Shown in pieces: positions 22,119-24,065 of a stretch of DNA of 28,029 bases. Origin of the DNA: JACRDV01 sp024860865 [NCBI: Methanobacteriota archaeon] (GTDB taxonomy: Archaea > JACRDV01). The position numbers and the translations under genes were made by a program. The DNA lies in contig JACRDV010000008.1 of NCBI GenBank assembly GCA_024860865.1, positions 1 through 28,029 on the forward strand, in the 5' to 3' direction. The stretch's first letter is position 1; each line of letters opens with the position of its first letter. The notes beneath the pieces are model-generated. The model was given only the letters and a program-made list of their open reading frames with translations, searched no databases and had not been told where the DNA came from.

Positions 22119-22931
22119 ATGGCCCGTGCTATCTGGACTGGAAGTATTTCATTCGGTCTCGTTAACATTCCTATACGGCTCTATCCAGCGACCGAAGATC
22201 ACGAGATTTCCTTTCGAACACTTCACGATAAGTGCAATACTCCGCTCGAATATAAGCGATATTGCCCAGTGTGTAAAACAGAAGTTTCTTGGGAGAACGT
22301 TGATAAAGGATTTCAAGTTACTAAGGGCAAATTTGTAGTTCTTAAGAAAGCAGATTTTGAGCGCATTAAGTTAAAAACCACAAAGACTATTGATATACTC
22401 CAATTCGTCAATGCAGCAAGAATTGACCCGATTTTCTATAACAAACACTATTTTATTGCTCCTGAAAAAGGTGCTGAGCAAGCATATTCTTTGTTTAAAG
22501 AAGCACTTGAGCTTTCTGGGATGATGGCGCTTGGAAAAGTAGTGATGCGAAATCGTGAGCATCTGGTAGCGCTAAGATGGTATGGCAAAGGTCTTTTGAT
22601 GTCAATATTGTATTATAAGGATGAAGTGAAATCACCTGAGGATTTTGAGGAAATCAAGCAATTAGTGGCAGTGCGAAGTGATGCTCAACTCAAGTTAGCG
22701 AGATTGTTAATAGATCAATTAGCGAAAGAAGATTTTGAGATCAGTGATTTCAAAGACGAGTATCGCAGGGCTCTTCAGCAGTTAGTGAGCGCTAAGCTTA
22801 AAGGCGAAGAATTTTTAGTTGAAAAACCTCCAACTGTCGAGGCAGCAAGAGATTTGATGTCAGCGCTAAAAGCAAGCGTAGAGCAGTTTAAGAAAAAGAA
22901 GAAAAAGAAAATAGAAGTGGAGGCTAGGTGA
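22119..22931 (+). CDS. ku: Ku protein (non-homologous end joining)
   Basis: A 270-residue Ku homolog, close to the usual size of bacterial/archaeal Ku. It opens with MARAIWTGSISFGLVNIPIR, the family's most conserved stretch, and continues with LHDKCNTPLEYKRYCPVCKT, then GFQVTKGKFVVL and the bridge-region text MALGKVVMRNREHLVALRW. The C-terminus ends in a lysine-rich run (FKKKKKKKIEVEAR), the DNA-binding tail seen in many Ku proteins. Ku forms a homodimeric ring that threads onto DNA ends and recruits a LigD-type ligase. The decayed ligase 5' copy begins 11 bp after its stop and the interrupted ligase follows, so this is a Ku-ligase NHEJ locus. Confidence 0.96.
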   Translation: MARAIWTGSISFGLVNIPIRLYPATEDHEISFRTLHDKCNTPLEYKRYCPVCKTEVSWENVDKGFQVTKGKFVVLKKADFERIKLKTTKTIDILQFVNAARIDPIFYNKHYFIAPEKGAEQAYSLFKEALELSGMMALGKVVMRNREHLVALRWYGKGLLMSILYYKDEVKSPEDFEEIKQLVAVRSDAQLKLARLLIDQLAKEDFEISDFKDEYRRALQQLVSAKLKGEEFLVEKPPTVEAARDLMSALKASVEQFKKKKKKKIEVEAR

Positions 22932-22941
22932 GCTTCTTTTG

Positions 22942-23024
22942 ATGAATGAAAAAATTGAGCCAATGCTATCTATCCTAGCAAACCATTTGATTCCCCTAAC
23001 CATATTTTTGAAATCAAATTTGAT
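22942..23024 (+). pseudogene. Decayed extra copy of the DNA ligase 5' end
   Basis: From ATG 22942 the sequence reads MNEKIEPMLSILA. After a 1-nt loss near 22981 it continues PFDSPNHIFEIKFD, the same segment as residues 5-31 of the ligase downstream. The two copies differ at many positions, so this is an old paralogous or replaced 5' end rather than a recent duplication. It contains the active-site EIKFD without interruption but then diverges (PQLILKMEND), losing the rest of the gene. It sits where the ligase should start in a Ku-LigD operon. Confidence 0.6.
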
Positions 23025-23070
23025 CCACAACTAATATTAAAAATGGAAAATGATGAGGTGAAAGTTAAAA

Positions 23071-24065
23071 ATGACCTTATTTGAAGAAAAAATAGCGCCA
23101 ATGTTAGCACATATTTCAGAACCATTTGATTCAAACGAGTGGTTATTTGAGATCAAAATTTCTTGGTAGTTTTTTGCCAGGAAATGGTCATATTTGATGG
23201 TACTAGGACAATTGCTTTTCTTGGAAAAACAACTCGTCTTCAAAATCGTCGCTTTATAGATTTAACGTACCGTTACCCTGAACTCCAGCAATTAAATCGA
23301 AATATTAAGGCAAAAGAGGCGATTCTCGATGGAGAGATTATTGTATTCCAAAATGGATTGTCAAATTTTTACAAATTACAAGAAAGAGAACATCAAACGA
23401 AAAAGTTTAAGATAAATCTACTTTCTGAGCAAATGCCCGCAGTTTATGTAGCTTTTGATTTACTTTACTTAAATGGAAAGAAGTTAGTTACTCAACCTCT
23501 TATTAAACGAAGAGAATTATTAAGTAAAACAGTCAAAGAGGATGAGCGCATTCTTGTTTCACAATATATTTTTGAGTATGGCAAATCTTACTTCAAAGAG
23601 GCAAAAAAACGTGGATTAGAAGGGATAATGGCTAAGCAAATAGGTAGCCCATATCTAATTGGAATGCGTAGCCGATATTGGTTGAAGATAAAGAATTTGA
23701 AAACACTTGATTGCGTTATAGCCGGCTACACAAAGGGAGAAGGTTGGCGGACAAAATACTTCGGAGCTTTAGTTTTGGGTTGCTATTATAGAGGAAAGTT
23801 GACTTATATCGGAAGAGTTGGAACAGGATTAAATGTCTCTGAATTCGAGTTAATTACTCCTCAGTTTGAAAAACTTAAAACAAAAGATTGCCCTTTTTCT
23901 GAAAAGCCAAGGTTTCCCTCGGATATAGAGGTAACGTGGATCAAACCAGAGCTTGTTTGTGAAGTAAAATTCATGAATTTATCCCGAGACCTAAAATTGC
24001 GGGCTCCTAGTTTTATTCGCTTACGGAATGATAAGTGGCCAAAGGATTGTGAGTTAGAAATTTGA
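23071..24065 (+). CDS. ATP-dependent DNA ligase (LigD-type), interrupted by a 35-nt putative BHB intron
   Basis: Exon 1 starts at ATG 23071 after GAGGTG (23054-23059) and reads MTLFEEKIAPMLAHISEPFD, then SNEWLFEIK. As written the frame then hits TAG at 23167. Removing 23157-23191 joins it to the 24065 frame and gives a 319-residue ligase with motif I EIKFDGTR (nucleotidyl Lys 29), motif III AFDLLYLNG, motif IV EGIMAKQ, motif V WLKIKN, and an OB-fold domain ending IRLRNDKWPKD. Without removal, the longest ORF (TTG 23163) has IFDG in place of KFDG and would lack the catalytic lysine. The ligase seals breaks held by Ku, encoded just upstream. Either the mRNA is spliced or the gene is dead; perfect conservation of all other motifs argues for function. 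Confidence 0.8.
23157..23191 (+). other. Putative bulge-helix-bulge (BHB) intron, 35 nt
   Basis: The RNA around the interruption folds as a standard archaeal BHB. The central 4-bp helix is GAUC (23151-23154) with GGUC (23186-23189), including one U.G. The 3-nt bulges are AAA (23155-23157) and AUA (23190-23192). The intron stem is 9 bp, 23158-23166 with 23177-23185 (one U.G), around a 10-nt loop. Cutting after the second nucleotide of each bulge, as the archaeal tRNA-splicing endonuclease does, removes exactly 35 nt and rebuilds the AAA lysine codon. The exon-exon helix is weak (A-U, G.U, a U-U mismatch, then U.G, U-A, A-U). Splicing is inferred. Confidence 0.6.

Follow-up and report, generated by a model that had tools for sequence, protein, structure and literature searches.

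Bulge-helix-bulge (BHB) introns are known in tRNA, in rRNA and in the mRNA of cbf5. In the accessible text of the study on Crenarchaeota, the BHB structures of the cbf5 introns are mostly unconventional and are linked to a hetero-oligomeric EndA (PMC2738675). A paper from 2020, as far as its accessible text goes, cites cbf5 as the sole other BHB intron described from archaea, and places BHB sites in the 5′ UTR of Haloferax HVO_1309, with EndA acting on mRNA (PMC7714728).

Here we analyse a DNA ligase gene of the uncultured archaeon JACRDV01 sp024860865 (assembly GCA_024860865.1), whose frame is broken at the active-site lysine codon by a short insert with BHB geometry. The whole stretch of DNA analysed, hereafter the window, is 28,029 nucleotides long (contig JACRDV010000008.1, positions 1–28,029, forward strand; G000:C32 in our numbering) and belongs to a draft genome of 160 contigs that is 92.45% complete.

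The interrupted ligase gene

The ATP-dependent ligase lies next to its NHEJ partner Ku, and its features, all on the forward strand, are the following:

22119..22931, +, Ku gene, NHEJ partner, directly 5′ of the ligase (Pfam PF02735, 6e-49; TIGR02772, 290.4 bits, cut-off 150)
22942..23070, +, 5′ end of a second ligase, a frameshifted remnant (MNEKIEPML...PFDSPNHIFEIKFD) that has the site ATCAAATTTGAT without an intron, from reading frames and alignment with the exons
23071..23156, +, ligase exon 1, 28 codons and the AA of the Lys29 codon, from reading frames and homologue alignment
23151..23154, +, central helix, exon side, GAUC
23155..23157, +, bulge 1, AAA, with the predicted cut after 23156
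23157..23191, +, putative BHB intron, 35 nt
23158..23166, +, 5′ arm of the inner stem, AUUUCUUGG
23177..23185, +, 3′ arm of the inner stem, CCAGGAAAU
23186..23189, +, central helix, intron side, GGUC
23190..23192, +, bulge 2, AUA, with the predicted cut after 23191
23192..24065, +, ligase exon 2, from the third base of the Lys29 codon to the stop (PF01068, PF04679)

A sequence-only reading of the window had proposed that the ligase frame breaks between EIK and FDG and that 35 extra nucleotides lie there, and this was confirmed at base level. Exon 1 begins with the ATG at 23071 and ends GAG ATC AA, as read directly from the sequence. The fold that the same reading had drawn can also be read directly: a central helix GAUC/GGUC of 4 bp, one of them U-G, two bulges (AAA and AUA) and an inner stem of 9 bp (12 bp if G-U pairs are counted) closed by a loop of 10 nt. 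The outer, exonic helix has two weak pairs, and the structure is a BHB with an inner stem, short of the full hBHBh′. When each bulge is cut behind its second nucleotide, the joined exons read GAG ATC AAA TTT GAT GG, which encodes E-I-K-F-D; the junction has two product-equivalent registers, and one of the two has the full central helix. Without splicing, the upstream ligase frame stops within the insert, at UAG 23167–23169, and the downstream frame reads I, not K, ahead of FDG.

Removal of 23157–23191 rebuilds E-I-K-F-D, alters nothing else and yields the 319-residue ligase that had been predicted. This protein scores 279.7 bits against the NHEJ-ligase equivalog TIGR02779 (cut-off 227.75; NCBIfam scores were computed for the spliced reading), and its Pfam ligase domain reaches 128.5 bits, versus 113.4 for the downstream open frame alone. 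It has the adenylation domain PF01068 with the KxDG lysine and the C-terminal domain PF04679, and its residues 6–314 match the solved chain 1vs0_A (Rv0938), which we take to be LigD. Across KxDG it aligns without gaps with ten homologues, and it retains 48 of the 52 columns that are invariant among them, the four exceptions being K/R, F/L, L/I and T/S. Exon 2 is open for 290 codons.

Aligning the locus with its relatives had been suggested as a check, and it gave homologues that lack the intron at this codon. KxDGxR is uninterrupted in 80 of 80 homologue loci, the best 80 of 514 genome-contig loci (79 by an open-frame rule and L113, which ends early, by eye), found by a search with two patterns, one of which an intron at this place would break. 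It is also uninterrupted in the 10 aligned LigD-like homologues from other genomes. The same intron was not seen in ligase relatives among the matches listed for 148 other genomes, the source of these 10 homologues; no phage match to the ligase was found, and a phylum-level search of the genome set returned no genome besides the host's own. Since the homologous ligases examined do not have it (80/80), this lineage probably acquired the intron.

No further copy of the insert turned up in the host genome, where the stem pattern matches one place and an 81-nt query retrieved itself and three weak pieces of 17–23 nt; nor did viral contigs contain an exact match. A mobile repeat was rejected on the single genome match to the stem pattern and the absence of an exact viral-contig match, and an intein on the size of the insert, which is 35 nt, not a multiple of three, and contains UAG. 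Once joined, the site ATCAAATTTGAT (23152–23156 and 23192–23198) reads as a perfect 12-bp palindrome, and the intron lies at its midpoint to within one nucleotide. Insertion at this palindrome could reflect a preference or chance, the latter because I-K-F-D in AT-rich codons spells ATCAAATTTGAT.

The folding energy of the intron region was beaten by 3 of 200 shuffles (z = −2.32). On both strands of the real window, no BHB other than the ligase intron reaches 12 inner pairs, and 60 dinucleotide shuffles of the window gave on average 0.57 BHBs per strand with an inner stem of at least 12. RNAfold assigned the central helix a pair probability of 0.94–0.98 with flanks of 10–20 nt, about 0.1 with 40 nt and 0.0 with 80 nt; from 40 nt upwards an alternative fold is favoured. 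The ligase fold alone is thus not significant and could be a chance product of an AT-rich window, and independent intron cases were therefore sought. At the ligase, chance is exceeded by the joint occurrence of the fold, the splice register and the rebuilt catalytic codon, and by its recurrence in other genes.

Splicing machinery and further candidate introns

The host genome has one match to PF01974, a 185-aa open frame (107.4 bits, cut-off 27) that passes the endA equivalog cut-off. Among solved structures it is closest to 5x89, followed by 1a79, presumably the M. jannaschii enzyme, which is matched at residues 7–171 of 171, almost its entire length. The length suggests an alpha-type, possibly homotetrameric EndA; the part of the genome absent from the draft could encode another subunit. 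Homotetrameric EndA prefers strict BHB motifs, which would fit the 3-4-3 geometry seen here. RtcB, the ligase that acts in tRNA splicing, is also encoded, by a gene that is itself interrupted. Among 15 aligned tRNA matches, 12 contain 13–44 extra nucleotides in the anticodon or D loop, and splicing would therefore be routine in this organism. These come from 22 hits, of which 19 loci were analysed (five of them without a match) and three were left out, one being a tRNA already seen elsewhere and two being 72–73 nt long. Host tRNA genes with insertions in the D loop and elsewhere were noted at L130 and L133. The host TruB/Cbf5 is encoded in a single open frame of 338 aa.

Two more coding genes of the host carry a candidate intron:

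L162:89-119 (G000:C15), rtcB intron, 31 nt, strict BHB, in the HxGYGFPIGG motif
L197:16677-16714 (G000:C51), radical-SAM intron, 38 nt, strict BHB, just before the cysteine motif

The rtcB break was found by searching for the partner enzyme RtcB, with no fold criterion applied. Positions 1–26 and 25–426 of the RtcB model fall in different frames, and removing the 31 nt, which have a GGGG/CUCC central helix and an inner stem of 10, restores MPDAHWG-Y-GFPIGG. The spliced reading covers the whole model and scores 568.5 bits, versus 522.7 and 22.8 for the unspliced pieces; this is the only RtcB gene found in the host genome. In the radical-SAM intron the inner helix has 10 pairs and the outer helix 10 or more. 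Homologues with 76 and 71% identity cross the junction without a break (RKYT.FYATGVY.GIATGY), while the host sequence itself is matched in two separate parts.

A survey for BHBs covered 745 kb of the 1544-kb host genome (the window and 75 stretches) and was limited to strict BHBs, so that relaxed ones would be missed. Its first 611 kb, window included, held 1525 candidates, none of which passed the first coding-score filter; looser filters left 588 and then 53, among which the radical-SAM intron ranked first, the ligase second and rtcB sixth. Another, stricter coding score left 869 candidates, passing the ligase and excluding the rtcB and radical-SAM introns. A later run returned 258 candidates in 60 of the earlier stretches (radical-SAM first, rtcB ninth) and 49 in 15 new stretches (134 kb), none of the latter convincing. 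The printed top rows were judged by eye, four candidates were inspected more closely and three were tested with homology. By eye the remaining ones resembled neighbouring genes or joins of non-coding sequence, secY/adk being one example, and they were set aside.

We also searched for rtcB in 283 distinct archaeal genomes, host included (149 and 141, with 7 shared), and examined eight broken-looking entries among the matches listed. Six of the eight carry strict BHB introns, at these places:

G059 (32 nt), G194 (28 nt), G150 (31 nt) and G176 (23 nt), at the codon and phase of the host intron
G180 (31 nt) and G235 (32 nt), five nt upstream of the host site
G176 (29 nt) and G235 (32 nt), second intron, in the GIG(F/Y)DINCG motif
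L243, L274, L275, L276, L277 and L278 (reverse strand), the six further rtcB loci

With the host, at least seven archaeal genomes thus have rtcB introns. AGA forms the second bulge of three of the five introns at the shared position, and also that of the second intron in G176. In the reading of G194 an unusual CHADGH stands directly before the intron, where MPDxH would be expected, and exon 1 of G194 may hold an error. The two other entries were an intein-like one (G172), rejected as a BHB intron, and one at a contig end (G274), in which no BHB was found. Several archaeal rtcB genes have long intein-like open frames of about 900–1000 aa, presumably inteins, in the conserved region that hosts the BHB introns, and L280 shows an intein-like start in rtcB.

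The ligase, host rtcB and radical-SAM introns and the eight rtcB introns of the six other genomes form a set of 11. Covariation of the helix, which had been suggested for ligase homologues, was examined over this set of ligase, rtcB and radical-SAM genes instead. In all 11, the two halves of the central helix, exonic and intronic, are fully paired (4/4), and their sequences differ between most genes and genomes. When the intron halves were shuffled 100,000 times, no shuffle reached 10, and the best, 9 of 11, occurred three times. A 4/4 helix was among the criteria by which the rtcB and radical-SAM cases were sought; these statistics are therefore not independent of selection, and the shuffle understates the probability of a chance result. 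After both splice sites were slid in step by 1–6 nt, none of the 11 retained a full helix together with three inner pairs, and random positions with the same lengths had them in 0.13% of cases; each intron has one to three product-equivalent registers. The outer helix has 0–2 pairs in nine of the other ten introns too. With 40-nt flanks the RNAfold helix probability ranges from 0.00 to 0.95 among the introns, and one rtcB intron falls below the ligase; the low ligase value is therefore not unique.

Proposed splicing and alternative readings

We consider it very probable that the 35 nt are a BHB-type pre-mRNA intron, with EndA cutting the ligase pre-mRNA and RtcB joining it, as the sequence-only reading had proposed in calling the insert a spliced BHB intron. 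That proposal is supported by the TIGR02779 pass of the spliced ligase, the candidate introns in rtcB and radical-SAM genes, and those in rtcB of six other genomes. Transcription of the ligase, cleavage and ligation of its RNA and activity of the enzyme are predictions from the genome sequence. The transcript would fold into a strict 3-4-3 bulge-helix-bulge, which the host EndA would cut after the second nucleotide of each bulge. EndA cleavage leaves 2′,3′-cyclic phosphate and 5′-OH ends. RtcB would then join the exons and rebuild the Lys29 codon of the KxDG motif, the lysine that receives AMP. Unspliced RNA would give only a 32-aa peptide or a protein without this lysine; because the downstream frame has isoleucine in its place, an active ligase would need splicing. 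Splicing would also compete with translation, which would run into a stop starting 11 nt downstream of the 5′ cut.

Several points count against the intron: the weak outer helix, the alternative fold found by RNAfold, its absence from the other ligases examined, the stricter coding score that passed the ligase but excluded the rtcB and radical-SAM introns, the decayed ligase fragment nearby, and the palindromic empty site as a possible hairpin-insertion hot spot. The last two would suit a pseudogene, in which the ligase gene was disrupted when a hairpin-forming sequence inserted at the palindrome, the resemblance to a BHB being fortuitous. The frameshifted 5′ fragment upstream shows past decay at the locus, the empty site ATCAAATTTGAT is palindromic, and the shuffles produce inner stems of this length at about 0.57 per strand. 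Yet exon 2 has stayed open over its 290 codons, the whole ligase keeps 48 of 52 invariant columns, and the host genome yielded no second copy of the insert. Moreover, the same architecture interrupts the only RtcB gene found, in a genome with frequent tRNA introns, and in each of the 11 introns the fold lies at the splice register. With these observations we regard a pseudogene as improbable. An assembly or sequencing artefact would be conceivable in so fragmented and incomplete a draft (160 contigs, 92.45%), but it would not be expected to give strict BHBs in exactly the right register, in three genes whose inserts are unrelated and again in the rtcB of six other genomes, which makes an artefact extraordinarily unlikely.

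Recoding, by a −1 frameshift or by ribosome bypass across the 35 nt, would draw on the hairpin with a stop in its loop. The bypass in phage T4 gene 60 involves a hairpin with a stop and matched take-off and landing codons. Such codons are needed for bypass, whereas here they would be AAA and ATA; the frameshift product would gain about 12 residues between K and FDG, breaking motif I, and either route leaves the 3-4-3 geometry of 11 introns unexplained. We therefore hold recoding to be highly unlikely.

Comparison with known systems

The ligase, rtcB and radical-SAM mRNAs would be new hosts for a known mechanism. That such an intron was not known from a LigD-type ligase, as had been stated from recall, agrees with the open-licence literature, in which, PMC12397907, PMC6379350 and PMC4090602 included, we found no report of an intron in a DNA-ligase or rtcB mRNA; nor was one found there for a radical-SAM mRNA, in searches that were not directed at radical SAM. 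If the reading holds for the three coding introns from roughly half of this genome and for the rtcB introns of at least seven genomes, some protein genes of little-studied archaea look broken yet are spliced, the tRNA machinery splices mRNA more widely than has been assumed and at canonical motifs, and the gain and loss of mRNA introns can be studied across genomes. A more far-reaching idea, which we put forward tentatively and with some doubt, is that in several archaeal lineages gene expression has a recurring layer of short strict BHB introns, which cluster in catalytic motifs and include a self-referential loop, in which RtcB joins its own mRNA, so that the output of RtcB, and thereby of the NHEJ ligase, is tied to splicing capacity or tRNA-splicing load. 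The intron in the mRNA of the splicing ligase itself would make such a regulatory loop directly testable.

The presumed rtcB inteins apparently occupy the same conserved region of RtcB as the BHB introns; unlike these, they are in frame, far longer and removed from the protein. The motif at the ligase is that of archaeal tRNA BHB introns, as given in the accessible text of PMC6379350 and PMC4090602, and presumably the same enzymes act on it, but the host RNA is an mRNA and the outer exon helix of the ligase is weak. Like HVO_1309, as described in the accessible text of PMC7714728, our cases place EndA on an archaeal mRNA, here by prediction; the site there is in the 5′ UTR, whereas here a coding frame would be rebuilt. 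The closest parallel in kind is cbf5, where, in the accessible text of PMC2738675, a BHB intron likewise lies in a coding region, is cut between bulge nucleotides 2 and 3 and leaves a conserved protein product. In contrast to cbf5, the introns of the host genome are strict 3-4-3 BHBs, occur where only one EndA-type gene was found, and are hosted by ligase, rtcB and radical-SAM genes.
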